DNA from: Synechococcus sp. AG-670-B23
GTDB taxonomy: Bacteria; Cyanobacteriota; Cyanobacteriia; PCC-6307; Cyanobiaceae
Direction: 5' to 3'
NCBI GenBank assembly: GCA_003209165.1
Contig: QCSL01000022.1
Span: 1-35,457 of the forward strand
DNA length: 35,457 bases
The notes beneath the pieces were generated by a model. It was not told the origin of the DNA. It ran no database searches and saw nothing but the letters and a program-made list of their open reading frames with translations. This document shows positions 1,024 to 16,266 of the stretch, one piece after another; position 1 is the stretch's first letter, and every line of letters begins with the position of its first letter. Both the position numbers and the translations under genes were made by a program.

Positions 1024-1041
1024 AGCCTTCCTAGGCTTTTT
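1024..1041 (+). terminator. Weak intrinsic terminator-like hairpin
   Basis: AGCCT and AGGCT form a 5-bp stem around a TCCT loop and are followed by five T. It lies about 115 bases upstream of the outer-membrane protein start. It could end a short upstream transcript or attenuate the leader. The stem is short, so confidence is low. Confidence 0.3.
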
Positions 1042-1154
1042 GAGATTTCTATAAGTAATTGGCTGCATCATGCAAGCTAATTATTTAGGAATGCTGAAGA
1101 TTTTTCCAGGCTGTGCTCCTCTCGTTAACATTCGCTGGACTTGGTTTATTAAGC

Positions 1155-1937
1155 ATGCCCCGCTTGCGCACTCCACTGCTCCTGGGTCTGATTGGTAGTC
1201 TCGTCTCCACTGGTGCTGTTGCACAGGAGGCAGATTCTTCTATGATTCAAATGCTTATCCAGCAAAATGAGGAGCTGCGTGAGCGCATCGAGAAGCTTGA
1301 AGCTGCCTCAAGCTTTACTAGCGCCGAACCTGATGCTTTAGTGCCTAAAAACGGTTTATACGTTCAGGCTGATATTGGCGGCCAGTATCGTGATCTTGCT
1401 GGTGAAGATGGAGACACTGCTACTTACTTTGAGCGTGGCTTCTATGGATCAGCTGGAATAGGTTATAGGTTCTCTCCAAATTTTCGTCTGAGCGCAGAAT
1501 ATGCAAACCAAAGCAGTGACGCAGATAAGGTCTCTGCCGAAGATGCAGGTGGTGGTGTGCCCTACCCAGGGTTGGGTGCTATCACACTAAATCAATATAC
1601 TATCAATGCCTATTATGATGTACCTGGTTTTGGTTATAAAAAACGCATCAGACCATATGTTGGTGTAGGTGTTGGAACTCAGAAGAGCTCACTTATTGGG
1701 ATCTCCAACAGTCTAGCCTCTGAATTTAATCTTTATGCTTTTGGAGAGACATGGGCTCCCCTCGTAACTTTCCAGGCAGGTGCTTCTTACATCGTAAATG
1801 AGAATACTGAGATCTACGCTGGTGGTAAGTACGCTCATGGCAGTGAAATGCTTTTTAGGGGTACTGCCTTTGGAAATCTCCTTCCACAAAGCTCTCGCAA
1901 CTGGAGTGTGAGCGGCGGCGTCCGCTACACCTTCTGA
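1155..1937 (+). CDS. Outer-membrane beta-barrel protein (opacity/OmpA-barrel type)
   Basis: Probably a small exported beta-barrel of the outer membrane. The ATG at 1155 is preferred over an in-frame GTG at 1113 because it gives a compact signal peptide: two Arg, a Leu/Gly-rich core and a cut near VAQ (residues 22-24). Residues 28-51 form a short heptad-like coiled coil (MLIQQNEELRERIEKLEAA). From about residue 65 the chain alternates polar and aromatic/hydrophobic residues in strand-like blocks. It has the Gly-rich signatures of the OMP_b-brl fold (GSAGIGYRFSPNFRLSAEYA, RPYVGVGVGTQ) and ends in the typical C-terminal barrel signal with a final Phe (SVSGGVRYTF). The mature protein is about 236 aa, enough for eight or so strands. 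The coiled coil before the barrel is unusual and could mediate oligomerisation or peptidoglycan contact. The gene stands alone and is followed by a strong terminator. The cargo or role is unknown. Confidence 0.85.
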   Translation: MPRLRTPLLLGLIGSLVSTGAVAQEADSSMIQMLIQQNEELRERIEKLEAASSFTSAEPDALVPKNGLYVQADIGGQYRDLAGEDGDTATYFERGFYGSAGIGYRFSPNFRLSAEYANQSSDADKVSAEDAGGGVPYPGLGAITLNQYTINAYYDVPGFGYKKRIRPYVGVGVGTQKSSLIGISNSLASEFNLYAFGETWAPLVTFQAGASYIVNENTEIYAGGKYAHGSEMLFRGTAFGNLLPQSSRNWSVSGGVRYTF

Positions 1938-2052
1938 GCCCTCAACAAACCTTCTTCACGTCTGGTTCCTCTCTCTAAGGGTCTAAGGGGTTCCTCAGCT
2001 GGACATCAAATCGAAGTAAGGAGTTATGGTCCCAGTACTCGGGGTTTTGTAA

Positions 2053-2083
2053 AGGCAGGACGTTTAGGCGTCCTGCCTTTTTA
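2053..2083 (+). terminator. Strong intrinsic terminator of the OMP gene
   Basis: A perfect 10-bp stem (AGGCAGGACG / CGTCCTGCCT) around a 6-nt loop, followed by TTTTAT. It lies about 115 bases after the stop of the outer-membrane protein gene, the only gene it can serve. Confidence 0.92.
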
Positions 2084-2353
2084 TGTGCCTGACTGAATTT
2101 GTCCTCGACCCGAAATCCTCCAGGGCGATATCCTTCCTTGAGTTGGACGAAAGGGTGACCCGTAAACCTGATGGTGGTGCTCTCCAAACCCAGATCACAG
2201 TGCCCGTCCGCCACTGATGTGCTCCAGTAAATCACGACGGGAGTGGACCTCTGGGTGGGATTGTTGCTGGAGGTTTGCTCCCAATAACAGGATGTTGATA
2301 ATCAACTTCTTTCATAAGACCTTCGGCATACCCCTTACGAAATTCCCTAGGAA

Positions 2354-2455
2354 TTATTCGAGAAGTCTATCGATGCAATATTTTAGAGTTGAGCTGATGC
2401 TCACTGTTGAAGCTTTAAAGTTTGATGATATCTCTACTGCTACTTTCTTTTTCAT
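2354..2455 (-). CDS. Possible small protein (33 aa) or remnant
   Basis: ATG-to-TAA frame starting MKKKVAVEISSNF, a basic start followed by Ser/Thr-rich sequence. There is no clear ribosome binding site. The segment sits in the minus-strand graveyard and could be the C-terminal piece of a broken gene. I do not recognise it. Confidence 0.2.
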   Translation of the reverse strand: MKKKVAVEISSNFKASTVSISSTLKYCIDRLLE

Positions 2456-2580
2456 CTTTGGGGCGAGGACTTTTCTTCTGTCCGTTGATTCACGTTATCT
2501 TTGCAAACAAGTTTTACTTCTTTAAGCAATACCTTCTCTTGCTTTGTTTGAGAAGATCGGTATTGATATTCGAAAAGTAG

Positions 2581-2835
2581 TTAGGGCGTTGCCCTAACTC
2601 TGGCTCTTGAAATCTGCATTCTATAGTTTTCACGCGAGTGTGCTATCAGGTTGTTTCCTGCTGATGCGCCGATGTGACTGAAGAACTCAACATCATCGTG
2701 AGTATGTAGACCGTATTCTTAACCTCTTGATCTGATAACCCACGCTGTATCTCGATAAACTTTGCTATCTGATTCGTGATAAATAAAGTCAATTTGTATC
2801 TTATAAAGTTTGTCATCGTGTCTGCCCATAATCAT
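2581..2835 (-). pseudogene. 84-codon frame with one internal TAA
   Basis: A good start is visible: ATG at 2833-2835 preceded by AGGAAAGGA, one of the best Shine-Dalgarno sequences in the window. The frame reads 38 codons (MIMGRHDDKLYKIQIDFIYH...VIRSRG), meets TAA at 2719-2721, and continues in the same frame for 45 more protein-like codons (EYGLHTHDDVEFFSHIGASA...) to TAA at 2581-2583. The composition on both sides of the stop is alike (charged, aromatic, no low complexity). That points to a formerly intact protein of about 84 aa with a nonsense mutation. A 38-aa truncated product could still be made. Family unknown. Confidence 0.55.
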
Positions 2836-2985
2836 TCAAGTCCTTTCCTCAGTGCCCTCTCTTTAGGTCGCGGATCTTTACCGATCTGTCATCCATCGGT
2901 TCTGCTCCTGGTGGTTTTGATTTCCCTTTGCACTTTGATTTTCATAGTTTTACTGCTTCCTCGTACATGAAACCTCTTTTTTCAC

Positions 2986-3168
2986 TTACTGATTCATGAA
3001 CTCTTGAATTTCCTTGAACTGCTTCTCTTCCCAGTGTTTTCATATTTCTGGTTTGACCACATCAAACTTTTTTTTCTGAGCATCAGTTAGCGAGGTTTCC
3101 AGTTTTGCAAAATCACTGTTAGGAAAGTATTTCTGCGGTGTCGGCAACCCTAAATCTTGATAGTTCAT
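2986..3168 (-). pseudogene. 60-codon frame with one internal TGA
   Basis: Starts at an ATG (3166-3168) with AAGAGG six bases upstream, reads 42 codons (MNYQDLGLPTPQKYFPNSDF...), meets TGA at 3040-3042 and continues in frame for 17 lysine/glutamate-rich codons (KHWEEKQFKEIQEFMNQ) to TAA at 2986-2988. The distal part reads as an amphipathic helix, so the TGA looks like a nonsense mutation in a small helical protein. Family unknown. Confidence 0.5.
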
Positions 3169-3460
3169 CGCTCTGCCTCTTGATTCGTTCTGATTGGTCT
3201 TCAATGACGTTTTTCAAAACCCCATCAGATCAATGCAGTTATGGACTAGGTCTGTCCTGGAGTATTTCGCCGGACTTTCCTCGCCGTGCATTTCATCTAT
3301 ATATAGAGATTGGTCGTCATATCTTCGATGGCCTGGTTTAACTTTCGCGATGCTTCTTCACGATGTCGTTCGGCATGGAATTCGTGGTGTCATCGATGTG
3401 TTCATTCTTCCTTTGCTTGACTCCGCTTTCTTGACTTGTTGATTCACCCTTTGTTTTACG
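3119..3460 (-). pseudogene. Multiply frameshifted remnant of a hydrophilic protein
   Basis: Minus-strand segments follow one another in different frames without gaps. First comes a Lys/Ser/Glu-rich part ending MPNDIVKKHRES, then EEASRKLNQAIEDMTTNLYI, then DEMHGEESPAKYSRTDLVHN, then LKNVIEDQSERIKRQSDELS, which ends at TAA 3119-3121. Each has coding-like composition and each ends soon after the next begins, the pattern expected when indels accumulate in a dead gene of about 110 aa. It overlaps the start of the next small pseudogene (2986-3168). No family recognised. Confidence 0.45.
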
Positions 3461-3734
3461 AATCTAGATATGGTGAAGTAGTTTTTCTTGCGGTGTCGAG
3501 TGAACTCCTCGATAAGATCTACTCATCTTCGCTAAAATGGATACTAATATCCTTTCATGTTAAAAATTTGTGCATAGTTATTGCTAATTAATGTTGTGAA
3601 CTCGACAAGCTTGTTTGCGAATTTCATCCTCTAGCCAGGAATGTAACTACTCCCAGCGCAGACTTATTGCTTTTTCCACGCAGTCTTCGCATAACTCAGA
3701 TACATACAAATACGATATATTTTTGCGAGACATA

Positions 3735-3768
3735 GACCCCCTGTCCCGCGCTTCGGAGGGGGCCTTTT
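3735..3768 (+). terminator. Terminator-like GC hairpin
   Basis: GACCCCCT (3735-3742) and AGGGGGCC (3757-3764) pair with one mismatch around a 14-nt loop and are followed by TTTTGCTTT. It resembles the GC-rich terminators of marine picocyanobacteria. No intact plus-strand gene lies upstream, so it may be an orphan of a lost gene or end a small RNA. Confidence 0.45.
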
Positions 3769-3861
3769 GCTTTCAACCACAAACTCCATTCTTTTGCATA
3801 AAATCTTTCGCCTAGTATCGTTAAGAATACTAGTATTGATGTAACTTTTGGTATTGAAAGA

Positions 3862-4272
3862 CCATTTATCGATAACGCGGTCGCTTAGAAAGAACACGCC
3901 ACTACATCTTTCACTATATTCCATTTGACTCCGAAATGTAGTGAAATTAGTGCGTAAACCCCTCTTCTCATATGTATTACGCTTTAACAGTGAGTACTGC
4001 ATCCATTCATCAAGCCTTTTGAGGCCTTCACTGCGAACTGCTAATGCCGTTCTGTGACCTTCTTCGTGATTCTGCAGGAGTTGAAGCCTGCCCCCTGCTG
4101 TCGGTCTTCAGGTATTCCGGGCCGATCTTGTGGAGCTAGTCTCGTGAGCATGGAAGGTCCAGAACCCTTCACGGCCTCCTCCTCAGACTTTGTTGAGTTA
4201 ACCAGTAAAGGTGCCCAACGCTGACTGAACTAGGTCCTAAAGGGATTCGAGTTGGAACTGCGCCCTACCTCT
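3862..4272 (-). pseudogene. Degraded minus-strand ORF(s)
   Basis: The frame open from 4107 down gives a protein-like stretch (LLQNHEEGHRTALAVRSEGL, then KRLDEWMQYSLLKRNTYEKR) that fades into unlikely sequence near 3862. Upstream, other frames supply matching pieces: a Ser/Glu-rich piece ending near 4100 (SEEEAVKGSGPSMLTRLAPQ) and a short piece at about 4200-4270 with an internal TAG (QFQLESL, stop, DLVQSALGTFTG). A CCCCC tract at about 4090-4094 lies near the likely frame change. The original gene cannot be named. Confidence 0.35.
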
Positions 4273-4297
4273 TCCTCTCATCCCTACCAGGTGGATA

Positions 4298-4573
4298 TCA
4301 AATGCTGGAGGAGTATTGCAAGGACTTCCTGAGTCGTTTCTTGTGACCCCTGCTGTAAGAGGGAAGTATCGTTTCTATACCCTCATATTGGGTCTTCAGA
4401 CCATACACACTTGCCAGCTTTTCAGGTCTCCCTTGAAGCGGTTCAGGGTGTCCTAGGGATGTCGTAAGGACCAAGTACCTCGAACCAAGCACCTGTGCCA
4501 ATTTGGTGAAGTACTCGGGTGGTTCTTGGTCATTCCCTATGACCCTGTAGTCCTTCAACCAACGGTTGAGCAA
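4298..4573 (-). pseudogene. Unrecognised 91-codon ORF, probably a remnant
   Basis: An uninterrupted frame from a TTG codon, beginning with plausible protein sequence (LNRWLKDYRVIGNDQEPPEY, then FTKLAQVLGSRYLVLTTSLG) and ending in a basic tail. It has no good start codon or ribosome binding site and lies directly downstream of the broken gene at 4588-4911. It may be the tail of the same gene family or a separate small protein. No domain is recognised. Confidence 0.3.
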
Positions 4574-4587
4574 CCATAGGGTAAGTG

Positions 4588-4911
4588 CTATGTAAAAAAT
4601 TCCTCTTCCTGTGCTGCCTTGAGTTCCTCGTTGGTCAGGCAGAGGATCTGATGAATGCTCGAGTGTTTGGGCGGCAGTTTGCCTTCCAGTGCATACAGGC
4701 TGTCGTCGATATCGATCTGAAGGAGTTTTGACCAGACCTGTGTATTGATGCCGCTTTGGTCCCTGAGGTCCTAGAAGAGGTCATCGGACAGCGTGTCTTT
4801 TGCTGCTCTGCTCTAATCAGAGCATAGGTCAGATTTGGGTTATCGAACCAAGAGAGAACTGATCGACCCGCCAACCATTCTTTAACCGCTCAGAATCTCA
4901 GGAAGTTTCTT
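4588..4911 (-). pseudogene. Small protein gene broken by two frame changes and a stop
   Basis: The best-preserved dead gene of the graveyard. Reading leftward: a first piece (LKKLPEILSG) up to about 4883; a second frame (AVKEWLAGRSVLSWFDNPNL, then TYALIRAEQQ) to about 4800; then a third frame with a TAG at 4771-4773 (DTLSDDLF, stop, DLRDQSGINT) continuing through QVWSKLLQIDIDDSLYALEG and KHSSIHQILCLTNEELKAA to a TAG at 4588-4590. Joined, the pieces give a continuous acidic helical protein of about 105 aa. I do not recognise the family. Confidence 0.5.
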
Positions 4912-5050
4912 CAGTGGATTTGCAAATAGTCACTATCTCAAAGGAGAATGCCCCACAACGTATCCACTGATTTTATTAAGCAATATCCGCGTCAGCTCAC
5001 ATGCTTAACGCATGCTCCCGGTGTCATGCAATGGCTGCTATCTAGGGAAA

Positions 5051-5067
5051 GCTGAAATCGTTTCAGC
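5051..5067. promoter_or_regulatory. 17-bp palindrome, candidate operator of the glgX-like gene
   Basis: GCTGAAA-TCG-TTTCAGC is a perfect palindrome with 7-bp arms, ending 62 bases before the start of the debranching enzyme gene. Short palindromes with a central CG and A/T-rich half-sites of this kind are typical binding sites of LacI-family sugar regulators; the odd spacing is less common. It could also act as a leader hairpin. No regulator gene is visible in the window. Confidence 0.4.
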
Positions 5068-5129
5068 CTTGGTGAACCACGACGGCTGTTGACTCGTCCC
5101 TCGTTCAAACCTCTACTTCGATTGCCTCT

Positions 5130-7292
5130 ATGACGATTAGCGCTCCTCCTGTTACTGCATCACTTCGGGGCAATCCACTCGAACCACAGGGCACAGCATT
5201 TCGTCGTTACAAGGGCTCGGCGCATCCATTTGGAAGCACTCCGGAAGCAAAAGGGACGAATTTCTCCCTATTCAGCGCGAATGCAACAGCAGTTCAGCTT
5301 TTGCTTTTTACGCATCCAAGCGACAAGACCCCAGTCAAGGTGATCGACCTGGACTCAGGTGACAATCGGAGCTTCAATATCTGGCATGCCTTTATTGAGG
5401 GCGTGAAGCCAGGAATGGGGTATGCCTACAGAGTTGATGGACCCCGGGAACCCTGGAATGGGCACCGCTTCGATCCCGAAAAAGTCTTGATCGACCCGTA
5501 CTCCAATGGAAATTCTCTGGAGTTGTGGGAACGGGGGCCAGCCTGCGTCCCTGGTGACAACGTTCAGACAAGCATGCGAAGCGTGGTGATTGATCTCGAC
5601 GACTACGACTGGGAAGGAGATCTTCCGATCAACCGCGATATGGCTGAAAGTGTCATTTATGAGATGCACGTTGGGGGATTTACAAAGAGTCCCAGTAGTG
5701 GAGTGAAACACCCTGGAACATATTTAGGTCTTATCGAGAAAATTCCCTATCTCAAATCTCTCGGGGTGACTGCAGTTGAACTGTTGCCATGTTGCAGTTT
5801 TGATCACACTGATGTGTTCAAAGAACACGATGGAAGGAAGTTGGTGAATTACTGGGGGTATAGCACGATGGGCTATTTTTCCCCTCATCAGGGATATTGC
5901 GTTTCAGAATCAGAAGGCAACCATATCAAGGAATTCAGAGATATGGTCAAAGCCCTGCACCAAGCAGGAATCGAAGTTATTCTTGATGTAGTTTACAACC
6001 ACACCGATGAGGGCAATCACCAAGGCCCTATGTTTTGTTTCAAAGGTATTGACAATGCAACTTACTATTATTTAACTGGAGCAGATGGCTCGAAAGAATT
6101 TTATTATGACTATACCGGCTGTGGCAATACATTCAATTGCAATCATCCTGTAGGAGAAAAACTAATCCTTGATTCACTGCGTTTCTGGGTTGAAGAAATG
6201 CATGTGGATGGCTTTAGGTTCGATGAAGGTTCCGTTCTCAGCCGAGGTGAAGACGGTGCACCAATGGAACACCCTCCTGTGATCTGGGCAATTGAACTGG
6301 ACGATGTTCTTGGAAAAAGCAAGGTAATCGCAGAAGCGTGGGATGCTGCAGGGCTTTACCAGATTGGTTATTTCCCGGGAGCGCGTTGGGCAGAATGGAA
6401 TGGAAAATATCGTGATTGTATAAGAAGCTTCATCAAAGGAGAGCCTGGAATAATTAGCGAAGTGTCTTCAAGGATTACTGGCAGTTCAGATCTGTACCAA
6501 GGTCGGCATGAACAACCCATCAACAGTGTCAATTTTGTGACAGCTCATGATGGATTTACGTTATACGACCTCACGGCTTATAACGAAAAACACAATTGGG
6601 CCAACGGAGAGGGGAATAATGATGGAATTAATGACAACCTAAGTTGGAACTGCGGAGCTGAAGGTGAAACCAACGACCAATGGATCAATGATCTAAGGAA
6701 GCGTCAGGTTAAAAACTTTGCAACTATCCACATGCTGTCCATGGGTGTCCCCATGATCGTTGGTGGAGATGAATTCATGAGAAGCCAGGGTGGCAACAAC
6801 AATACGTATTGCCATGATAACGAAATTAATTGGTATAACTGGGATCAGATTGCAAACGAAACCAGTGTGGAAATGATTCGTTTTTGGTCAATGCTAATTA
6901 AAAAAAGAGCGAGATACATTAATAATTTCAAAGGTCGCTACTTCACAGGAAAAACTAACAAATATGGACTAAGTGAGGTGGCATGGCATGGAACACAGCT
7001 GAACAACCCCGGCTGGGATGATCCAGAAGCACGTTGCTTTGCCGTGACCTATGGAGACACTGCGGATGACACTGACCAGACAGCCAATATCCACTGCATG
7101 TTCAACATGTACTGGGAAGGTATTGAGTTTCAACTGCCACAGCTTGAGGGCTTGAATTGGTATCGATCGATTGATACCGGCCAACCAACACCAAACGATA
7201 TTACCGAGCCGGAAAACATGGTCAAGATCACAGATAACAGCTACACAGTTGGGGGCAGAAGCATTGTTGTCCTTGTCAGCAAGCCGACATGA
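5130..7292 (+). CDS. glgX: Glycogen debranching enzyme, GlgX/isoamylase type (GH13)
   Basis: Hydrolyses alpha-1,6 branches of glycogen or limit dextrins in the cytosol. The N-terminal CBM48-type domain lies at about residues 30-110 (HPFGSTPEAKGTNFSLFSAN), followed by the GH13 barrel. Catalytic regions are all present: region I DVVYNH (286-291), region II GFRFD with nucleophile Asp365, region III AEAWD with acid/base Glu402, and region IV TAHDGF with Asp474. At 720 aa the length is typical of GlgX/TreX enzymes. Region II continues EGSVLSRGEDG, where isoamylases usually have a DLA-type sequence, a mild deviation. No signal peptide is seen. ATG 5130 is chosen because the CBM48 starts soon after. 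The next gene follows after 63 bases without a terminator, so co-transcription is likely. Many cyanobacteria carry a second debranching enzyme; this copy sits among accessory genes, so its substrate may differ from housekeeping glycogen. Confidence 0.92.
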   Translation: MTISAPPVTASLRGNPLEPQGTAFRRYKGSAHPFGSTPEAKGTNFSLFSANATAVQLLLFTHPSDKTPVKVIDLDSGDNRSFNIWHAFIEGVKPGMGYAYRVDGPREPWNGHRFDPEKVLIDPYSNGNSLELWERGPACVPGDNVQTSMRSVVIDLDDYDWEGDLPINRDMAESVIYEMHVGGFTKSPSSGVKHPGTYLGLIEKIPYLKSLGVTAVELLPCCSFDHTDVFKEHDGRKLVNYWGYSTMGYFSPHQGYCVSESEGNHIKEFRDMVKALHQAGIEVILDVVYNHTDEGNHQGPMFCFKGIDNATYYYLTGADGSKEFYYDYTGCGNTFNCNHPVGEKLILDSLRFWVEEMHVDGFRFDEGSVLSRGEDGAPMEHPPVIWAIELDDVLGKSKVIAEAWDAAGLYQIGYFPGARWAEWNGKYRDCIRSFIKGEPGIISEVSSRITGSSDLYQGRHEQPINSVNFVTAHDGFTLYDLTAYNEKHNWANGEGNNDGINDNLSWNCGAEGETNDQWINDLRKRQVKNFATIHMLSMGVPMIVGGDEFMRSQGGNNNTYCHDNEINWYNWDQIANETSVEMIRFWSMLIKKRARYINNFKGRYFTGKTNKYGLSEVAWHGTQLNNPGWDDPEARCFAVTYGDTADDTDQTANIHCMFNMYWEGIEFQLPQLEGLNWYRSIDTGQPTPNDITEPENMVKITDNSYTVGGRSIVVLVSKPT

Positions 7293-7355
7293 GCTAGCTC
7301 GACATCCCCACACACCAACAAAACTGACAAAACCACCCTCTTTTTTACACGAATC

Positions 7356-9515
7356 ATGGGCACCCAGAACCAACTAAATTTTCCATTTTCAGACTTGATT
7401 GCTGGTTACATCAGAAAAGTTTCGTATCCGGATGTATTTGATTGCAAGGGTGAAATTGAGCTCGAAACATCCGACGGTCGGATGTACACAGTTAAGATCA
7501 CGGATGCTGCATACGCAGAATTAGTCAGGAACTTAGGTGAGCCATTCCAAATGGCCCCTGACCTCGGCCAGATTCTTGTCGAGGATCGATTCATACATGT
7601 CTATGGCCTGTTCTATCCAGAATCAGACGGACTGAAGTTTGAAGCCAAGCACATGTTGCTGTTTGGACGTGGGAAAGATGACCTCAGATTTGAAGATCAG
7701 AACTGGTGGATTCATCAGATTCAGCAACTGTTGAACTTCTACTTGGAAGCACAGTTTCGTGTGGTTGAGGGAGAAGCCATTGACTTCAAGAAGTTTAGAA
7801 CTGATCTGAGTGCTGAAGGCAAAAAACAGGATGGTGTTCAAAACCTTGACACCATCTCACGCCTGATCTATGGCTTTGCGACGGCCTATATGATCACCGG
7901 CGACGAACGTGCCTTAGAGGCAGCCAAGAACGGCACTGAATATATGCAGCGTCATTTCAGGCACCAGAACAAGTCTGAAGGTATTTGCTATTGGTACAGT
8001 CAAATTGACATCCAAGACGATGGAAGTGTACGCAAATATATGGGTTCAACTGCAGGTGGTGATGAAGGCGGTAATGCCATCCCTTGCTATGAGCAAATTT
8101 ATGCACTAGCAGGCCCCACACAAACTTGGCGTCTGATTGGTGGTGAAGGAATTAAACAGGATATCGACGACACTATTTCCTTCCTCAATAGGTTTTACAA
8201 AGACCATGGACCTTATGGTGGCTACTATTCTCACGTTGATCCTGTTACTTTTGACGCGAAGGCAGAGTCTCTCGGTGTCAACAAAGCAAAGAAAAATTGG
8301 AACTCAGTTGGTGACCACGCCCCGGCCTATCTCATCAATTTGTATTTAGCTACTGGGGATGAGAACTATGGGAAGTTCCTTGAAGATACCTTCGACACGA
8401 TCTGTGAGCATTTCCCTGATTATGGTTATAGCCCCTTCATGAACGAGAAGTTCTATGAAGACTGGACTCACGATCTCAAGTGGGGTATTCATCAGGCACG
8501 CTGTGTTGTTGGTCACAACCTCAAAGTTGCCTGGAACCTCACCAGGATGCACAGCTTGATGCCCAAAGAGAGCTACAAAACCTTCGCCCACCAGATTGCA
8601 GATGCAATTCCAGGTGCAGGGTGTGATAACCAGCGCGGTGGCTGGTACGACATGATGGAGCGGACCCTCAAGGACGGGGAAGAGCATTACCGTCGTGTCT
8701 GGCACGACAGAAAAGCCTGGTGGCAGCAGGAACAGGGGATACTTGCGTATTACATCATGGCTGGTGTCTATAACGACAAGCCTGAATATCTCAACTACGC
8801 ACGGGAAGGTTCTGCCTTCTACAACGGCTGGTTCCTCGATTACGACGCCGGTGGCATTTATTTTAACGTTCTCTCGAATGGTCAACCTTATGCATTGGGA
8901 GGAGAGCGAGGAAAAGGCAGCCACTCTATGGCTGGCTATCACTCCTTTGAACTCTGCTTCCTTGCGGCGATTTATTCAAACCTGCTGGTGAACAAGGAAC
9001 CGATGGACTTCTACTTCCAGCCGGATCCTCACGCTTGGCCGGAAAATAAACTCCGGGTTGCTCCCGATCTACTACCCGCTGGCAGCGTTGAACTGTCGGA
9101 AGTATGGATTGACGACAAGTCCTACACTGATTTCGATCGTGCTAACTTGATTGTCAATTTACCTCAATCGGATAAGCCGGTACGGGTACGTGTCAGGATT
9201 GAACCTGCAGGATTGGGTTTCAGTGCTGATCTGATGAGCTATCAGAACGGCATTGGCAACTTTGCATTGGATGGTGATCTGACGCGCTCTCAACTGCCAA
9301 GTTTCAAGAAGGAAGTGGAGAAACTCAGCGGACTGAAGGGTATGGTTCTTGACATGACCAATCTGAAATCTGTTGACGATACAGGCTGGAACTATATGTT
9401 GTTCACAAAGCAGCAAAGAGGTGCTGACTTCAGCTTGTCTCTCAAGGGGATGAATCCAGAAATTACACAGTCGCTGAAGGACGCTGAACTGGATGAGGAG
9501 TTTACAACTCTCTAA
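7356..9515 (+). CDS. AGE-family (N-acylglucosamine 2-epimerase-like) protein with C-terminal STAS-like domain
   Basis: 719 aa. After about 110 residues of beta-rich N-terminal sequence, residues of about 120-560 form an (alpha/alpha) barrel of the N-acyl-D-glucosamine 2-epimerase / cellobiose 2-epimerase superfamily. Supporting motifs are GHNLKVAWNL (the usual GHxxExAW helix), KAWWQQEQGILA (the usual WWxQxE motif) and YHSFELCFLA near the barrel end. These enzymes isomerise sugars at C2. Residues of about 632-719 read as a STAS (anti-sigma-factor-antagonist-like) domain: FALDGDLTRSQLPSF, a central strand GMVLDMTNL, SVDDTG (672-677) at the usual DSSG loop, then a strand and a final helix. Family AGE enzymes are about 400 aa, so the two added domains are unusual. 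It is probably co-transcribed with the glgX-like gene and a strong terminator follows. The STAS domain could regulate or localise the enzyme. Whether it epimerises, and which sugar, is unknown. Confidence 0.8.
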   Translation: MGTQNQLNFPFSDLIAGYIRKVSYPDVFDCKGEIELETSDGRMYTVKITDAAYAELVRNLGEPFQMAPDLGQILVEDRFIHVYGLFYPESDGLKFEAKHMLLFGRGKDDLRFEDQNWWIHQIQQLLNFYLEAQFRVVEGEAIDFKKFRTDLSAEGKKQDGVQNLDTISRLIYGFATAYMITGDERALEAAKNGTEYMQRHFRHQNKSEGICYWYSQIDIQDDGSVRKYMGSTAGGDEGGNAIPCYEQIYALAGPTQTWRLIGGEGIKQDIDDTISFLNRFYKDHGPYGGYYSHVDPVTFDAKAESLGVNKAKKNWNSVGDHAPAYLINLYLATGDENYGKFLEDTFDTICEHFPDYGYSPFMNEKFYEDWTHDLKWGIHQARCVVGHNLKVAWNLTRMHSLMPKESYKTFAHQIADAIPGAGCDNQRGGWYDMMERTLKDGEEHYRRVWHDRKAWWQQEQGILAYYIMAGVYNDKPEYLNYAREGSAFYNGWFLDYDAGGIYFNVLSNGQPYALGGERGKGSHSMAGYHSFELCFLAAIYSNLLVNKEPMDFYFQPDPHAWPENKLRVAPDLLPAGSVELSEVWIDDKSYTDFDRANLIVNLPQSDKPVRVRVRIEPAGLGFSADLMSYQNGIGNFALDGDLTRSQLPSFKKEVEKLSGLKGMVLDMTNLKSVDDTGWNYMLFTKQQRGADFSLSLKGMNPEITQSLKDAELDEEFTTL

Positions 9516-9550
9516 CAGTCTGACGAATGTTGACTTTAATCGTTAAATTA

Positions 9551-9581
9551 AGAGGGCATGTTGATCATGCCCTCTTTTTTT
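9551..9581 (+). terminator. Strong intrinsic terminator after the AGE-STAS gene
   Basis: A perfect 10-bp stem AGAGGGCATG / CATGCCCTCT with a 5-nt loop, followed by six or seven T. It ends the glgX-like/AGE transcript 36 bases after the stop. The T run reaches to within about 10 bases of the next start codon, so the following gene needs its own promoter in or before this element, or depends on read-through. Confidence 0.93.
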
Positions 9582-9591
9582 GCTCACAGTC

Positions 9592-10992
9592 ATGACAGGA
9601 AGCATTACATCTAACAACAAGAAGGGCGTGGAGGCTGCGATGGCAGGAAACCATGTTGAAGCAGAAAGCTTCTTTCGTCAAGCAATAAAGGATAATAAAA
9701 CCGCGATAGAAGGACGCATGAACTTGATCCGCCTGTTGCACATGCAAGGAAGACATGCTGAGACAATTAGTATATTCAAAGAGCTTAAAAAAAAAGCTCA
9801 ACTAGTACAGATACACCCACAAATTTTGTATATTGCCACTCAAAGTGCATTAGATGTTCGTGATCACAAAATGGCAATACAGAATCTGCAAATACTAGCG
9901 CCTCAGAATCCTGGAAATAGTGATATTCAATGCATGCTGTCCAGGGCATTGATCGAAAGCGGTCGACTTTTGGATTCTAAAAATGTGCTCGAGAAAGCAA
10001 TGCTTGCCAACCCAAATAACCCTAGTATTGCTACACAACTAGCCATTACAGAAAGTGAGCTTGGAAACTACGATAAAGCAGAGAATTTGCACAAAAAACT
10101 AACTCAGCAATACAGTAATGCTTTTTTGAGCCACTTCAATTATGGACTTTTTTTGGTACATATAGGTGAAAAGGAAAGAGCGCTGAGCTGCTTTGAACGA
10201 TGCAAGCAACTTGTTCCGAATGCACCGGAAGCACAGGAGCAAATCGATAAGCTACTCATAAGCGGCAACGATACATTGACAGACATTTATAAAGACATCG
10301 AGAAAGAACAGTGGGATAAGGCCGAAATAAAGCTCAGAGAGAATCAAGAGTCGATAGAACCAATCCAGTTTTGGGCAGCGGTTAACGAGCTACCAACAGA
10401 ACTGCAGGGAAAACTAGGAGAAGTTGTAGCTTTTGACGAAGCAGTACAGGTTAAAACGGTTGAACTCTATTCAGAACTTGAAAGAGAAAGTTTTTTAAAT
10501 GATCTTGCTGATACCGTAAAAAAAACTGAAAGCTTGATATGGAATCGGGCAGGTAAACCAACACGATATGGTTTTCAAAGCCATGAAATGTTGAATGGCA
10601 TTCAATCACCAAACATTCAAGATTTATGCAAACGACTAAAGTTGGTGGTTTACGATTACATCAAAGATAAACCGCTTCTCCAACAGCTCAGAGATCAAAA
10701 GGAGGTGAACAATGTATTGAGCGGTTGGAGCGTTGTGCTTAGGAAAGGAGGGCACCAAAAACGACACATACATCCAGAATCAGTTGTTAGTGGAGTCTTG
10801 TACATTCAACTTCCAGAAGAGAGCGCTGATGAGGGGAAAAAAGAAGGGAACCTGTTGTTCCCCTCAAATAATATGAAAATGGTGACTCCGAAAGAAGGAA
10901 TGCTAGTGCTATTCCCTAGTTATCTTCCCCATGAAACAATACCGATAAAGAGTAAAGAAGAACGCATCTGTATCGCTTTTAACTGGACATAA
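9592..10992 (+). CDS. TPR protein with C-terminal 2OG-Fe(II) oxygenase domain
   Basis: 466 aa from ATG 9592; an upstream in-frame TTG lies inside the terminator T run and is rejected. Residues of about 1-230 are tetratricopeptide repeats (helix pairs such as AMAGNHVEAESFFRQAI, and YGLFLVHIGEKERALSCFER). Residues of about 370-466 match the 2OG-FeII_Oxy_5-type fold: HIHPESVVSG with His392/His394, a central strand and Gly turn, FPSYLPHET with His447 as distal iron ligand, and ERICIAFNW with Arg458 as likely 2-oxoglutarate contact. Such proteins hydroxylate a peptide or small-molecule substrate using O2, Fe(II) and 2-oxoglutarate; the TPR part would bind the partner. The substrate is unknown. The gene is AT-rich by eye and its stop lies 2 bases from the stop of the convergent next gene. 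Confidence 0.8.
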   Translation: MTGSITSNNKKGVEAAMAGNHVEAESFFRQAIKDNKTAIEGRMNLIRLLHMQGRHAETISIFKELKKKAQLVQIHPQILYIATQSALDVRDHKMAIQNLQILAPQNPGNSDIQCMLSRALIESGRLLDSKNVLEKAMLANPNNPSIATQLAITESELGNYDKAENLHKKLTQQYSNAFLSHFNYGLFLVHIGEKERALSCFERCKQLVPNAPEAQEQIDKLLISGNDTLTDIYKDIEKEQWDKAEIKLRENQESIEPIQFWAAVNELPTELQGKLGEVVAFDEAVQVKTVELYSELERESFLNDLADTVKKTESLIWNRAGKPTRYGFQSHEMLNGIQSPNIQDLCKRLKLVVYDYIKDKPLLQQLRDQKEVNNVLSGWSVVLRKGGHQKRHIHPESVVSGVLYIQLPEESADEGKKEGNLLFPSNNMKMVTPKEGMLVLFPSYLPHETIPIKSKEERICIAFNWT

Positions 10993-10994
10993 AA

Positions 10995-12638
10995 TCAACT
11001 ATATGGATATACAGAATAGCCACCATGTACAACATCGACAAAGAAACGATAATTGCCAGTGTGAGTGGGGGTGAACTCTAATGCAGGAGGATTGCCGTGA
11101 GATGTCAGCTGCCCGAACCGTTTGAGAGAACGCTTTGACGGATCTGCAGCTTCAGGATTACTGCCACTGAAATCAAACCCATAACAGTCAAGTTCATAAT
11201 CCGCAAAAACTAGTGCCCACGGTGAACGATTGGCAACATATTTGTAGTTGTAGGTTTGACCAGCAACTAAAGGAATTACCCTATCAAAACAACCAGGTTG
11301 TAGGGGGTTCATTAGATTTAACGGGGACTCAGGATTCCAAGCTTCGAGAGTGTCCGTGTTATCAAATGATCCAACAAGAGACATCGACTCAAGAGATGAA
11401 ACCGGAATCAGCTGACCAGAACCGGAAACGACTTGGATAGAAAGCCGATCAGTCTCAGTATCAAAGATGAATTCAAGATTACTTTCAATGTCAAGCTTGA
11501 AGCATATATTTAATTCATGCGGTTTACCATGCCAAGTAACACACTCGAGTGACGAAGAAGGTACACCATCATTAATATCAAGCCAACAGCCAAGCCCCAT
11601 CGTATCAAGAAATAGCTCAGTGCTGATTCCAATATTGACAACATGAAAGCCGGGCTTAACTTTAGCCCTTAGTGAAACTTTGTTAGATCCTGCAATCGGC
11701 TTCATTGACCGATCAGGATCGGTGGGGTCAAATTGATTGGATTCGAAGATACTTCCAAGAAGCTGAAATGAACTTCTATTGTTCAAAATATCAGGGTTTC
11801 TGAGAGAAGGGTTGGCAGGAGTTGGAATGACACTGAAGTGCGGTTTGTCAGACAACGGATCGTGGAGATTAAAACGATACTCGCCATCGTCAAATACTTG
11901 AATTGTGCAGCCTGAATGCATAGAAGAACCATGGCTGCTACCAAAACCAGTGCCTTGTACAAGTGATGCCTGGCCGTCATTTAAAGCAGAGAAACCAAAG
12001 TCTTCATCATGATTTGCAGAAATCAAGAACTGGTAAACACCATCGGCACGAAAGTCAATTCCACCACTCTTCAAAAGCGGAACATCAATGGTCCAGAGGT
12101 CTTCAGATTGCTTGACAAATTCACGCCCTTTAAGACGAGGGTCAAATTTGTCAAACATGTTTAGGCTATCCCAGGGGAAACCATTTAATTGAAAGGAATC
12201 AAACGAATCAATATGGTGAAATGTATCAAAACCAGCGCTTGGAGTCAAAGACAATTGCATAGACTCGGAGTCGAACTCAAAGACAATCAGCTGAGCAACA
12301 TCAACACGAAAATTGATATTATAAGTTGATTGTCCATCACGAGTTTCAATTAGATCAAAAATTCCAGGCTGCTTCTTTGATAAAGATGTTTTAAGTGCAC
12401 GCTTGGGAGAATGATTAATTACAAGGCGAAGACTATATAGACCATTCACATCTGGTGGTTGTGGGCCATCAACCGCGTGACAAACGCGCCAAATCTTATC
12501 CGAAACTCTGATCATGTCCAGAGCTGTTTCAAATGGATTCCATCGCCAACGACGTCGATGGATTGTGCCTAGCAGGCTGACTGATTCAATCGACTCAGAG
12601 TCAATATGCTGTTGAGTGAAGCGAGGCAACAAAAACAT
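10995..12638 (-). CDS. Four-repeat Ig-like, carbohydrate-binding-type protein
   Basis: 547 aa made of four divergent repeats of about 120-130 residues, starting at about residues 15, 142, 286 and 414. Each begins with a hydrophobic strand and Gly (SLLGTI, FQLNGF, FQLLGSI, SLVGSF), passes a WNP/DP-rich loop, and ends with a strand closing LSLTPS, FSVIPT, LSIQVVS or YSVYPY. The pattern, notably GNYRFFVDVVHGGYSVYP and DGEYRFNLHD, resembles the beta-sandwich starch-binding repeats of the SusE/SusF and pullulanase-associated type. No catalytic domain, signal peptide or membrane segment is seen, so it is either cytosolic or exported by an unrecognised route. Next to a debranching enzyme and a sugar epimerase, binding of glycogen or another glucan is a reasonable inference, not shown. 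It is transcribed toward the TPR-oxygenase gene, tail to tail. Start ATG 12638. Confidence 0.7.
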   Translation of the reverse strand: MFLLPRFTQQHIDSESIESVSLLGTIHRRRWRWNPFETALDMIRVSDKIWRVCHAVDGPQPPDVNGLYSLRLVINHSPKRALKTSLSKKQPGIFDLIETRDGQSTYNINFRVDVAQLIVFEFDSESMQLSLTPSAGFDTFHHIDSFDSFQLNGFPWDSLNMFDKFDPRLKGREFVKQSEDLWTIDVPLLKSGGIDFRADGVYQFLISANHDEDFGFSALNDGQASLVQGTGFGSSHGSSMHSGCTIQVFDDGEYRFNLHDPLSDKPHFSVIPTPANPSLRNPDILNNRSSFQLLGSIFESNQFDPTDPDRSMKPIAGSNKVSLRAKVKPGFHVVNIGISTELFLDTMGLGCWLDINDGVPSSSLECVTWHGKPHELNICFKLDIESNLEFIFDTETDRLSIQVVSGSGQLIPVSSLESMSLVGSFDNTDTLEAWNPESPLNLMNPLQPGCFDRVIPLVAGQTYNYKYVANRSPWALVFADYELDCYGFDFSGSNPEAADPSKRSLKRFGQLTSHGNPPALEFTPTHTGNYRFFVDVVHGGYSVYPYS

Positions 12639-12892
12639 AGAGACTGGTGTGAAGGCTCAATCCCACTGATAGCCATAAGCAAGTGATAACGCAATCATTG
12701 AGGGATATCGCAACCTATTGCGAGCAACACTCATAGAAAGGCTGAAGAAAACACAAAAATGCAGTTAGCGATTCAACACCATATGGGCGAGAATATTGAA
12801 AGCATATGTGGCTTGAACGATGCCAAATTCGAACCCCGTGACTATGGTTGCCTTGAGTGATAGCAACACTCCGACTTTATCCACCATTGGCT

Positions 12893-13750
12893 ATGGCAAA
12901 AAGAATTCTTGTCGTCCTGTCTGAGTGGGGCTACTGGGGCGAAGAGCTGATTGGCCCCCTTGATGTTCTATCGAAAGCTGGTTACCAGCTTGATTTCATG
13001 ACAGCGTTTGGGCGGAAGCCGCCGGCGTTGCCCCCGAGCATGGAAGAAGGATATCTGGATCCACCACTTAACAAGGTTGTAACCGACGCACACTACGCCA
13101 AGCGAACAACCGAAGTTCATGAATCAAATCTTCTCGACAATCCAATTAATTTGTCAGAGAAGATTTCTTTGATGCCATATTTTAACGGACCTAACTTTGG
13201 ATTAGAGCTAGCAGCCTTTCATGAAAGGCGTGAAGAATTCTGGAAAGAGTTTGTTGATCCCTACGATGCTTTGCTTATGCCTGGAGGAAGCGGGCCAATG
13301 GCAGATATGGTCAACAATGAAAGATTACACAATCTAATTCTTGGATATGTTGATCGTGACAAGCTAATTGCGGCTGAGTGCTACTGCGTCACCTGCCTTG
13401 CATTTGCCAGGGACTGGACCGAGAGGAAGAGCATTATCTGGGGCAAAAATGTCACAGGTCACGCCAGGGAATACGACTATAAAGAGGGTACTGGTTTTGC
13501 ACAAATGTACGGCTACGATGGAGAGCCAATGAATACCTCGGCCAACTTTGGGCCTCCGTTCTATCCTCTGGAATATATCCTTCGAGATGCCACTGGTCCT
13601 GAGGGCAAGTACCACGGCGGAGTAGGAAAGAATTTATCTACCATCCTTGATTACCCATTCCTGACAGGTCGTTCCACACAGGATTCGGCACTTGTCGGAG
13701 AGTTGGTACGCAAGGTTCTGGAAGAGGGTCTGCGCCGTTACGGCTGGTAA
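12893..13750 (+). CDS. DJ-1/PfpI (class I glutamine amidotransferase-like) family protein
   Basis: 285 aa from ATG 12893 (MAKRILVVLSEWGYWGEELI); an earlier in-frame start at 12857 would add 12 unlikely residues. The fold signature is clear: strand RILVVLS, the GPLDVLSKAGYQLDFMT helix-strand unit, LLMPGGSGPMADM (the GGHG-like loop), and the nucleophile elbow AECYCVTCLA with Cys163 and Glu162 instead of the usual ACHG. The family includes glyoxalase III/Hsp31-type hydratases, protein/nucleotide deglycases and isocyanide hydratases. The second cysteine (Cys165) in the elbow and the missing His set it apart from canonical members, so the activity cannot be assigned. It is followed by its own terminator and by a TPP enzyme gene on the same strand. 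Confidence 0.8.
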   Translation: MAKRILVVLSEWGYWGEELIGPLDVLSKAGYQLDFMTAFGRKPPALPPSMEEGYLDPPLNKVVTDAHYAKRTTEVHESNLLDNPINLSEKISLMPYFNGPNFGLELAAFHERREEFWKEFVDPYDALLMPGGSGPMADMVNNERLHNLILGYVDRDKLIAAECYCVTCLAFARDWTERKSIIWGKNVTGHAREYDYKEGTGFAQMYGYDGEPMNTSANFGPPFYPLEYILRDATGPEGKYHGGVGKNLSTILDYPFLTGRSTQDSALVGELVRKVLEEGLRRYGW

Positions 13751-13764
13751 ACCACACAATTTAA

Positions 13765-13795
13765 GGGCGCCTTAGCTTAGTAGGCGCCTAGTTTT
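13765..13795 (+). terminator. Intrinsic terminator after the DJ-1/PfpI gene
   Basis: GGGCGCCT and AGGCGCCT form an 8-bp stem (one G-U pair) around a 9-nt loop, followed by AGTTTTC. It lies 14 bases after the stop codon and 24 bases before the next start, separating the two genes at least in part. Confidence 0.75.
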
Positions 13796-13818
13796 CTTCA
13801 CTCACATCTCTGGCAATT

Positions 13819-15540
13819 ATGAAAGGACATGAGGCGATCCTGAGGCAGTTTCTTGCCAACGACTTGGACCATATGTTCGGGAACCCGGGGACTGTGGAAC
13901 AGGGGTTCCTTGATGCTTTGGCTGATGTGCCAGAGATGAAGTATATCCTCACCCTTCAAGAATCAATTGCGGTGCTTTGTGCAGACGGTTACGCGAGAGC
14001 ACGATTGAAACCAGCACTGGTGCAGATCCATAGTTCACCTGGACTCGGCAATGCGATCGGTAATCTTTACCAAGCAATGAGAGGTCAGGCTCCCTTGGTC
14101 GTTATCGGTGGGGATGCGGGAATCAAGTATCAGGCCATGGATGCACAAATGGCTGCTGATCTCGTCGCGATGGCAGAACCCGTTACCAAATGGTCTGCAA
14201 TGGTTCAGCACCCGTCCAGCCTGCTGCGGATGGTTAGACGAGCCATCAAGATTGCCGCTACACCGCCCTGTGGCCCTGTATATCTATGTCTACCTGAAGA
14301 TATTCTGGACGCAGAAGTAACTGAAGAGATTTTTCCAGCCCATGTCCCCAGCTTGGCAACTAAGCCGTGCGAGAATGATCTAAAGCAATTAGCTTCAGCT
14401 ATTGAGCAGGCCAGCAATCCAATCATTCTTGTTGGAGATGGGGTGGCCTGGACCGGCGGAGTTGACCCTGTGGTTGAGTTGGCGGAAACCATTGGAGCAA
14501 AGGTCTATTCAGCAGACGGAGGTGAGATTAACTTTCCCGATGATCATTTGCTCAATTACGGCAGTACAGGTCACATGTTCGGGGATGCAAGCCTACCGAT
14601 TATGAGAGGTTGTGATCTCTGCATCACTCTTGGAGCCTACTTATTACCAGAAGTATTTCCCCATCTGGGAGACATCTTTGATCCGAAAGCAACTGTCATT
14701 CATGTTGATACCGATGTCAATAATATTGCCAAGAATCATCGGGTCGACATTTCCTACGTCGCGCAACCACATACTGTGATCGAGGGTTTGATTCCCCTCG
14801 TTCAGCAGCTGCCACAGGATTGGCACAATGCTGCACAGGAAAGAAAAAAAATACTAGAAAGCGCATCTCCTGTGATCAATAATGACGTCGACGTCAATTA
14901 CGAAGTTGTACCTAAACACTCAAGTGAGGAGTATGATGGGAAGAATTTATCTATGAAGTCGGGATATTTCATCAAGACTCTTTCTGAGATGCTTCCTGAA
15001 AACAGAATTGTATTTGATGAAGCATTGACCAATTCCCCTCCAGTCAACAAATATCTCCCAGGGCGTGCACCTGGTGAAAGAATGTTGACACGGGGTGGTT
15101 CCTTAGGAACCGGTTTCCCCGGTGCTATTGGTGCAAAGATCGCCCACCCTGATCGATGCGTTGTTGGTTTTTCCGGAGATGGGGGAAGTATGTATACAAT
15201 CCAGTGCTTATGGACAGCAGCTCGTCACAATGTTGCAGCCAAATTTGTGGTTTGCCAAAACAGGTCTTACAAGCTGTTGCAGGCAAACATCAGCAAGTTT
15301 TGGGAGGAGAGAGGAATTGAAGGTCGGGAGTTCCCGATTCCTTTTGACCTTTCCAAACCTGAAATATGTTTCAATGAAATAGCGAACAGTTTCGGTGTTT
15401 CAGGTGAACGAGTTGTTAGTCCTGATCAGGTGAAAGGTGCAATTGAACGAATGCTTTCCCATGATGGGCCTTATCTGATCAATCTTGTGCTTGATGGTGC
15501 AATTAGACCCGATCTCATTGGCGTTCACTGCGGACAATAA
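13819..15540 (+). CDS. TPP-dependent 2-oxoacid decarboxylase-like enzyme (benzoylformate decarboxylase/acetolactate synthase superfamily)
   Basis: 573 aa with the three-domain layout of the family. The N-terminal PYR domain has the activating Glu48 in LTLQES and an FGNPG motif (residues 20-24, as in benzoylformate decarboxylase: FGNPGS). A central Rossmann-like domain lies at about 185-340. The C-terminal PP domain has GDGG at 453-456 and Asn481 25 residues later, the TPP/Mg binding motif. No FAD-loop Leu/Arg signature of acetolactate synthase is evident, and ilvB would normally pair with a small subunit gene, absent here. Benzoylformate, phenylpyruvate or a similar decarboxylase or carboligase is most likely; the substrate is open. 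It lies between a DJ-1 protein and NTF2-like/VOC genes. The frame continues protein-like past the TAA (next entry). Confidence 0.85.
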   Translation: MKGHEAILRQFLANDLDHMFGNPGTVEQGFLDALADVPEMKYILTLQESIAVLCADGYARARLKPALVQIHSSPGLGNAIGNLYQAMRGQAPLVVIGGDAGIKYQAMDAQMAADLVAMAEPVTKWSAMVQHPSSLLRMVRRAIKIAATPPCGPVYLCLPEDILDAEVTEEIFPAHVPSLATKPCENDLKQLASAIEQASNPIILVGDGVAWTGGVDPVVELAETIGAKVYSADGGEINFPDDHLLNYGSTGHMFGDASLPIMRGCDLCITLGAYLLPEVFPHLGDIFDPKATVIHVDTDVNNIAKNHRVDISYVAQPHTVIEGLIPLVQQLPQDWHNAAQERKKILESASPVINNDVDVNYEVVPKHSSEEYDGKNLSMKSGYFIKTLSEMLPENRIVFDEALTNSPPVNKYLPGRAPGERMLTRGGSLGTGFPGAIGAKIAHPDRCVVGFSGDGGSMYTIQCLWTAARHNVAAKFVVCQNRSYKLLQANISKFWEERGIEGREFPIPFDLSKPEICFNEIANSFGVSGERVVSPDQVKGAIERMLSHDGPYLINLVLDGAIRPDLIGVHCGQ

Positions 15541-15675
15541 CAAGATCATCCAGAGGGCTATACCTCCCTGACGGCCGATTTAGTGGTCGATCCTCAAACT
15601 CTAGCTATGCTCAAAATGGTTCAAAAGCTTGGAGCTGCGATATCCATGATCACTTACGGGCAACAGTTCGTTTGA
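15541..15675 (+). other. 44-codon in-frame open stretch directly after the TPP enzyme stop
   Basis: In the same frame as the preceding gene, the sequence past TAA reads 44 sense codons before TGA 15673-15675 (EGYTSLTADLVVDPQTLAML, then KMVQKLGAAISMITYGQQF). Composition is protein-like. It could be a lost C-terminal tail, a remnant of a further gene, or chance. Internal ATGs exist at 15607 and 15616 but give a peptide of only about 22 aa. Confidence 0.35.
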
Positions 15676-15798
15676 CCTCATGGAAAGTGTTCATTCTCAA
15701 TTTGTTCAACTATGAGCAAATGCATATCGAGTAGATCACTCGGACGTCAAACCAAGCAGCCTCACACCATCTTTATTGAACTTCACCACTCTTGATCC

Positions 15799-16224
15799 AT
15801 GTTTACTCATCCCGAGCTCTGGTCTTTTGCTTCAAACTGGTATCGACTCCTTGATATCCACGCTCCACTGGAAAGCTTTCGACCACTATTAACAGATGAC
15901 GTGCAACTGGTTTTTCCTGAAGCCACTGTGACGGGCTTCGAAGGCTATACAGGATGGTACAACAATGTCGTTAATATCTTTTTTGATGAGGAGCACACAC
16001 TTAAGGTTGCGGATATCACCAAGCAATCTGACTCCACTTGTGAGGCACATGTTGTTGTGAACTGGCATGCCAGTATCTGGAACGCTCCTGAAGCACGAAG
16101 CACGCGTTTGATGATGGACGCAGATCAAACATGGGAAGTCAAACGACTCAGCGATGGCAAATTGGCTGTTGCCAAATATATTGTTAACGGAATGACTTAC
16201 GAGCAGGGTTCTTGCAAGCTTTAA
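15799..16224 (+). CDS. NTF2-like / SnoaL-like small protein
   Basis: 141 aa, one domain of the cone-shaped NTF2-like superfamily. Evidence: an N-terminal helix pair with WYRLLDIHAPLESFRPLLTD (a variant of the usual 'aYaaalnagDldal..l'), a strand with DVQLVFPEATVTGFEGYTGW, then alternating strands (AHVVVNWHASIW, KYIVNGMTY). Members act as hydrolases, isomerases, dehydratases or polyketide cyclases, or bind small ligands. Start ATG 15799 follows a gene-poor 120 bases. The second NTF2-like gene begins 42 bases downstream, so the three genes to 17080 form an apparent operon. The ligand is unknown; Asp/His pocket residues cannot be assigned safely. Confidence 0.72.
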   Translation: MFTHPELWSFASNWYRLLDIHAPLESFRPLLTDDVQLVFPEATVTGFEGYTGWYNNVVNIFFDEEHTLKVADITKQSDSTCEAHVVVNWHASIWNAPEARSTRLMMDADQTWEVKRLSDGKLAVAKYIVNGMTYEQGSCKL

Positions 16225-16266
16225 GGCTTCAGGCACCACATCTTTAATTCAACCCCACATCCAATC

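Follow-up and report, generated by a model that had tools for sequence, protein, structure and literature searches.

We analysed a 35,457-nucleotide stretch of DNA from Synechococcus sp. AG-670-B23 (contig QCSL01000022.1; hereafter the window) and found that one forward-strand reading frame encodes a 719-aa protein joining an AGE-type enzyme to a STAS domain (the AGE-STAS fusion; for coordinates of all features, see Table 1). The protein begins with a beta domain, continues with an AGE-type (alpha/alpha) barrel that contains a conserved His pair and then with a beta-rich segment, and ends in the STAS domain. The full-length AlphaFold2 model, built from 44 sequences, has a mean pLDDT of 82.8 and a pTM of 0.80. 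Close relatives of the protein are present in records of marine Synechococcus and Prochlorococcus. The N-terminal domain is common to fused and unfused relatives (alignment A1 and the model), and the beta-rich segment at residues ~548-617 also forms the C-terminal end of the unfused enzymes. A sequence-only reading of the same DNA had proposed an AGE barrel followed by a STAS domain of about 88 residues. Both domains are present, but the enzyme is not a bare barrel, since it carries the flanking beta domain and beta segment, and the STAS domain is longer than proposed, at about 100 residues (618-719).

Table 1. Features of the AGE-STAS locus, with positions in the window
Feature	Position	Strand	Basis
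GlgX-type glycogen debranching enzyme, 720 aa, first of the gene pair	5130..7292	+	TIGR02100
AGE-STAS fusion protein, 719 aa	7356..9515	+	ORF, Pfam, model, Foldseek, relatives
N-terminal beta-rich domain, residues ~14-102	7395..7661	+	secondary structure of model, alignment A1
AGE-type (alpha/alpha) barrel, residues ~115-545	7698..8990	+	model, Foldseek
His387, GHN motif	8514..8516	+	aligned with GH of N-acylglucosamine 2-epimerase 8bry; invariant 44/44
His529, GYHS motif	8940..8942	+	aligned with YH of cellobiose 2-epimerase 5zig; invariant 44/44
Beta-rich segment between barrel and STAS, residues ~548-617	8997..9206	+	model, alignment, neighbourhood tables
STAS domain, residues 618-719, STAS2 (Slr1859-type) branch	9207..9512	+	Pfam, model, Foldseek, tree, profile
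Asp675 codon, at the phosphoserine position of stand-alone STAS proteins	9378..9380	+	alignment
Terminator-like hairpin, 11-bp stem then T run	9550..9576	+	consensus match
TPR / 2OG-Fe(II) oxygenase-like protein, mechanical TTG start	9580..10992	+	Pfam 2OG-FeII_Oxy_5, E = 1.8e-23

The gene upstream encodes a GlgX-type debranching enzyme (NCBIfam TIGR02100, 691.8 bits against a cut-off of 640.9) and ends 63 bp before the fusion gene. Because of this short gap and the terminator-like hairpin just after the second gene, the two look like a single two-gene transcription unit. The hairpin is the probable end of the transcript, as a consensus match and not a proof: terminator-like sites number seven in positions 4700-11200, against a mean of 5.6 in shuffled sequence. 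The link to a co-transcribed glycogen debranching enzyme had been drawn correctly in the sequence-only reading, and a survey of relatives bears out the association. Of the 33 fused loci with at least 2.5 kb of sequence before the gene, 31 have GlgX upstream at a distance of no more than 1.5 kb, a count made by hand from the neighbourhood tables with gaps of up to ~1.4 kb (the automated count is 24 of 33, because stop-to-stop frames overlap). The two fused loci with no GlgX nearby (L046 and L047) belong to Prochloron relatives.

The TPR / 2OG-Fe(II) oxygenase-like gene that follows the hairpin is a recurrent neighbour in picocyanobacteria and is probably transcribed separately. Beyond it, on the reverse strand (10995-12638), lies a gene for a 547-aa protein with a weak match to a pullulanase X25 domain (E = 0.09); several picocyanobacterial and Prochloron-type loci also have it close to the cluster, and it is perhaps a glucan-binding protein. 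Positions 12857-17080 hold, in a row, genes for a ThiJ/PfpI-like protein, a thiamine-diphosphate enzyme, two SnoaL-like proteins (matches below threshold), and a glyoxalase-family protein; DJ-1/ThiJ relatives recur near fused and split clusters alike. GC content is 0.39-0.50 in positions 1-20000 against 0.58-0.60 in 20001-34000, the right-hand part, which holds ftsZ and a CobD/CbiB gene. The GlgX/AGE-STAS cluster falls inside the low-GC stretch, which may be an island, given the low GC at the cluster and a similar dip in three relatives (L024, L027, and L037).

The enzyme core matches the Pfam family GlcNAc_2-epim (E = 8.7e-10; 38.8 bits, cut-off 23.4), and Foldseek ranks AGE enzymes first for the full model, with E values down to 9.2e-15. 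Matches to the barrel include glucose 2-epimerase (8h1n), cellobiose 2-epimerase (3wkg/5zig), and D-mannose isomerase (5x32), with TM scores of 0.74-0.83 by target length and rmsd of ~4-5.5. His387 and His529, which we take to be the catalytic His pair of AGE enzymes, are invariant and align with histidines of 8bry and 5zig, the sequence matches behind the His529 alignment being weak (E = 0.72 and 4.1e-4); on this basis, the fusion enzyme probably works as a sugar epimerase or isomerase. Its gene neighbourhood suggests glycogen-derived sugars as the substrate. Some profile matches to PDB sequences are out of register along the barrel. We considered a circular permutation and do not claim one, since the barrel consists of similar helical repeats and the structural match extends over ~450 columns.

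The C-terminal region is assigned to the STAS family by sequence and structure. PF01740 matches residues 631-717 with E = 5.5e-4 and 20.1 bits in the whole-protein Pfam scan (cut-off 22.6), and the same stretch exceeds that cut-off, at 25.8 bits, in a six-frame scan of the genome, so that its Pfam score is borderline. Modelled separately, residues 609-719 have the order beta-beta-alpha-beta-alpha-beta-alpha (mean pLDDT 85.7). The first PDB matches of this model are anti-sigma antagonists (TM ~0.7-0.8, E down to 1.1e-6): SpoIIAA (1til, 1tid, 1th8), RsfB (8ih8), and TM1442 (1vc1), with RsbV (6m36) at rank eight. A profile of 22 fused domains finds SpoIIAA by sequence as well (E = 1.2e-4). The alpha/beta layout on which the earlier STAS assignment of the last ~90 residues had been staked is thus what the model and Foldseek return, and we reject membership in another family, since fold and family scans agree on STAS. 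Leucine-rich-repeat chains also appear among the matches (E = 0.0021 and weaker; 2.9), matching only a ~35-residue piece. The SVDDTG loop singled out in the sequence-only reading corresponds to residues 672-677, with Asp675 occupying the phosphoserine position.

A chance fusion or an assembly error in one genome can be rejected because the fused proteins include 44 distinct C-terminal sequences. Matches occur in 22 of 98 relatives, the window's own genome included. Among the 47 genomes of the class that have a match, 14 carry the fusion and 33 do not, a division made by reading the table; the 33 include a few copies that are distant or broken. The 37 fused rows in a tree of 73 enzyme cores lie on one side of a single branch (support 94/98), and a single change suffices in 92% of bootstrap trees; from these sequences, the window form appears to be a fusion of single origin. 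A tree of 81 STAS sequences unites 30 fused domains in one group (100/99), placed with the STAS2 (Slr1859-type) rows and not with STAS1. This tree has only 113 columns and gives long-branch warnings, and support is 91/87 and 86/72 at the forks that put the fused domains inside STAS2; we therefore regard STAS2 ancestry as moderately supported and the exact placement as unsure. The early fused branches (L118-L120) retain a resemblance to STAS2, the fused domains of their genomes being 36-41% identical to the STAS2 protein P0002.

One genome (G340) holds both forms (L114 and L115), with kinase and phosphatase matches beside the split copy, and offers a natural test case for a division of labour between fused and split forms. 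Members of the family also appear in records with noncyanobacterial names: fused under Rhodobacterales (L044, L045, and L076), split under Treponema and a deltaproteobacterium (L055 and L058). These records suggest either transfer out of cyanobacteria or misbinned contigs. Four further loci (L021, L028, L036, and L056) are Synechococcus-like copies in "uncultured proteobacterium SRR4030075_bin.2," which is probably a mixed bin, since several such copies of the gene occur in one record set. A pattern scan of viral contigs for a viral origin gave no match.

Many cyanobacteria encode the enzyme as a separate protein of ~615 aa that ends where the STAS domain begins. The usual order at the split loci examined is enzyme, STAS1, GlgX, STAS2, and kinase, often with a PP2C phosphatase. 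Among the 34 split loci with at least 4.5 kb of downstream sequence, we find GlgX downstream in 31, the kinase in 31, STAS1 in 32, STAS2 in 32, and PP2C in 26; among the 27 fused loci with as much downstream sequence, the kinase, STAS1, STAS2, and PP2C are each found in none, and no icfG-type cluster is seen there. (In these counts the repeats L080, L116, and L117 are dropped, the partial loci L069 and L071 are left out, and near-identical strains are counted apart; the split rows include L067 and L074, whose enzyme genes are broken, and the distant L073 and L131.) At one locus (L064), the enzyme is followed by STAS1 only, with matches to GlgX, STAS2, kinase, and phosphatase absent from the locus.

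From gene content, gene order, and matching phosphoserine numbers, we identify the split cluster with the icfG cluster of Synechocystis (slr1855-slr1861). The phosphoserine positions are Ser54 in P0001 and Ser57 in P0002, the numbers reportedly given by Shi et al. in 1999. Published work places Slr1855 (annotated as N-acetylglucosamine 2-epimerase) with Slr1856, GlgX1, and IcfG in the salt-repressed operon slr1852-1862 (PMC8670252) and names Slr1856, the isoamylase slr1857, Slr1859, IcfG (slr1860), and Slr1861 for the icfG system (PMC12329169). Slr1861 is reported to be the kinase of both Slr1856 and Slr1859, IcfG to dephosphorylate Slr1856 and not Slr1859, and mutants of icfG and of slr1859 to show impairment when carbon is low and glucose is supplied (PMC12329169). 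In a further paper, growth in carbon-limited medium with glucose is attenuated by deletion of slr1859 and not of slr1856 (PMC11619594).

The fusion is accompanied by loss of the icfG switch. In a genome-wide search (E = 1e-3) of 27 genomes that we chose from those already examined, the cluster kinase (Slr1861-type) is present in all 10 split-only genomes and in the one genome with both forms, and is found in none of the 16 fused-only genomes, the window's own included; the query came from one genome (G063), its matches in split picocyanobacteria are 27-39% identical, and a very divergent kinase could be missed. Completeness of the window's own genome is 87.7%, but the kinase is likewise not found in six fused genomes of the genus that are near-complete (G003, G007, G020, G023, G029, and G032). 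These six have a single SpoIIE-type phosphatase, and only one was found in the window's own genome at its 87.7% completeness; a split-cluster genome of the genus (G009) has a second, adjoining the cluster. Since genomes of the genus with neither form also have one, this count sets G009 apart, and not the fusion. Counts of HATPase_c_2 proteins separate the fused and split forms poorly: two to four in the six near-complete fused genomes, six in the split G009, and six in a genome with neither form (G010).

The phosphoserine position has changed as well. Serine occupies it in all 26 STAS1 and all 24 STAS2 stand-alone proteins, a set of 50 that leans toward the two L077 copies, which served as BLAST queries; it was drawn from loci numbered no higher than L081 and so contains none of L112-L131. 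When the 59 fused loci are collapsed to 44 distinct C-terminal sequences, the position is Asp in 26, Ser in eight, Thr in six, and Asn, Gly, Ile, and Glu in one each. In the 27 picocyanobacterial domains among these (picked by the motif just after the position, a choice that yields the same set as the picocyanobacterial loci), it is Asp in 25, Asn in one, Gly in one, and Ser in none. The window's domain, with Asp675, thus lacks the serine of a phosphorylatable antagonist. An interface Asp is retained in 49 of the 50 stand-alone proteins vs. six of the 44 fused domains. In a paralogue from Synechocystis, Ssr1600, replacement of Ser59 and Ser60 by Asp is reported to have abolished binding of the kinase Slr1861 (PMC12329169). 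With these residues lost, and given the behavior of the Ssr1600 mutant, switching of the fused picocyanobacterial domain by an Slr1861-type kinase seems unlikely. Since Ser persists in eight fused domains and Thr is present in six with no cluster kinase found nearby, it seems that the kinase was lost first and the phosphoserine position varied afterward, with Asp nearly fixed in picocyanobacteria only.

These results divide the earlier suggestion that the domain is a partner-switching sensor. Its descent is supported, through the STAS2/Slr1859 branch; a working sensor in this organism is not, because the cluster kinase was not found, a single SpoIIE-type phosphatase was, and the phosphoserine position is Asp. 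Regulation here is more likely to be locked or intramolecular. The domain is nevertheless still under selection. Among pairs with finite dS (the only ones quoted, dS being near or beyond saturation for many pairs), dN/dS is 0.03-0.11 for the STAS part vs. 0.014-0.032 for the enzyme core; on these estimates the fused STAS domain evolves faster than the enzyme, yet is clearly under purifying selection. Within the fused clade of the core tree no domain loss is seen, the STAS domain being kept in 37 of 37 rows.

The explanation we favor, with a confidence that stands about evenly between acceptance and doubt, is that an Slr1855-type AGE enzyme has been permanently joined to a STAS2 (Slr1859-type) domain that was formerly like an anti-sigma antagonist and would now be a phosphorylation-independent subunit fixing one regulatory state. 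Split relatives keep the ancestral arrangement, in which free STAS2 would dock onto the enzyme at times set by the cluster kinase and phosphatase. Fusion would have made the docking permanent and the kinase useless; the kinase would then have been lost, its contact residues on the domain would have eroded, and in marine picocyanobacteria the phosphoserine position would have settled on Asp. The fused domain would hold the enzyme in one regulatory state independently of phosphorylation, and the adjoining GlgX may supply the enzyme's sugar. Since gene fusion is used as evidence to predict protein contacts, the joining of STAS2 to the enzyme suggests that the icfG switch acts on Slr1855; both a STAS-enzyme contact in split genomes and an effect of the domain on enzyme activity are inferred. 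A stronger form of this reading, which we think possible but would not bet on, is that the icfG protein Slr1859 directly controls the epimerase Slr1855, instead of or in addition to a sigma factor, and that picocyanobacteria made this control permanent with an Asp phosphomimic and discarded the kinase.

Several observations weigh against this explanation. Gene fusions also occur between proteins that have only a pathway in common; the gene after the split enzyme is usually STAS1 and not STAS2; and the eight Ser and six Thr among 44 fused domains indicate that the phosphoserine position may be drifting and not selected for phosphomimicry. Moreover, the published target of the paralogue Ssr1600 is a sigma factor (SigC), and two serines were changed in the published phosphomimic.

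An alternative is that the fused domain took on a new role in docking or ligand binding, keeping GlgX or a metabolite beside the enzyme, for example, and that its earlier part in switching no longer matters. The domain is under purifying selection even though the switch residues are lost, which fits this idea, as does the usual position of GlgX upstream. MlaB, found in MlaFB structures among the Foldseek matches of our STAS model, is likewise a STAS domain that serves as a stable subunit. However, GlgX is a neighbour also where the STAS protein is separate (downstream in 31 of 34 split loci), so that adjacency fails to single out a GlgX-STAS contact, and two fused loci lack a nearby GlgX; we consider repurposing unlikely. 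The domain might instead be a structural leftover that only stabilizes or dimerizes the enzyme, as its faster evolution and the variation of switch residues between lineages would allow; its retention throughout the fused clade at dN/dS well under one makes this improbable. We give least credence to continued partner switching with the one remaining stand-alone RsbW-like kinase, a scheme in which the enzyme would pass information on sugar state to a sigma-factor circuit. The window's own genome does retain one HATPase_c_2 protein and one STAS protein that stand alone, the latter with DSSGLG, and a two-hybrid test is reported to show PmgA interacting with both Slr1856 and Slr1859 (cited in PMC12329169). 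But the fused domain has Asp in place of the phosphoserine and has lost the interface Asp, BLAST gave no match between the remaining kinase and the cluster kinase even with E values as high as 10 allowed, and the more likely partner of this kinase would be the canonical stand-alone STAS protein.

The component parts and the icfG cluster were already known. A literature search that covered few subscription papers returned no description of the fusion or of an enzyme target of Slr1859, and no paper joining "STAS domain" and "N-acylglucosamine 2-epimerase"; the available excerpts of papers naming slr1855 give no activity for Slr1855. A 2025 paper lists the sigma factors targeted by Slr1856 and Slr1859 as unknown (PMC12329169), and the fusion, together with the absence of the kinase, names a concrete candidate target of the icfG system, Slr1855. 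If our reading is correct, a bacterial partner switch controls carbohydrate metabolism at the level of an enzyme, and abundant ocean phototrophs carry a locked version of it.

The Synechocystis icfG operon and the window are alike in the type of enzyme core, the GlgX partner, and the Slr1859-type STAS domain, and one split locus (L124) has the very order implied by the slr numbers: enzyme, STAS1, GlgX, STAS2, PP2C, and kinase. In contrast to icfG, the window has its STAS domain fused to the enzyme and Asp at the phosphoserine position, and no STAS1, kinase, or IcfG-type phosphatase turned up in its vicinity. Its GlgX is of another subtype than that of icfG-type clusters (43% identical to the L077 GlgX) and lies upstream of the enzyme. 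SpoIIAA and RsbV, among the best structural matches, share the STAS fold with the fused domain; unlike them, the window's domain is joined to an enzyme, lacks a phosphorylatable Ser, and stands in a genome where no cluster-type kinase was found. The AGE enzymes 8h1n, 3wkg/5zig, 5x32, and 8bry have the barrel and the conserved His pair in common with the window's enzyme, at only ~14-18% identity in the structural matches, and to this shared core the window's protein adds the N-terminal beta domain, the beta segment after the barrel, and the STAS domain.
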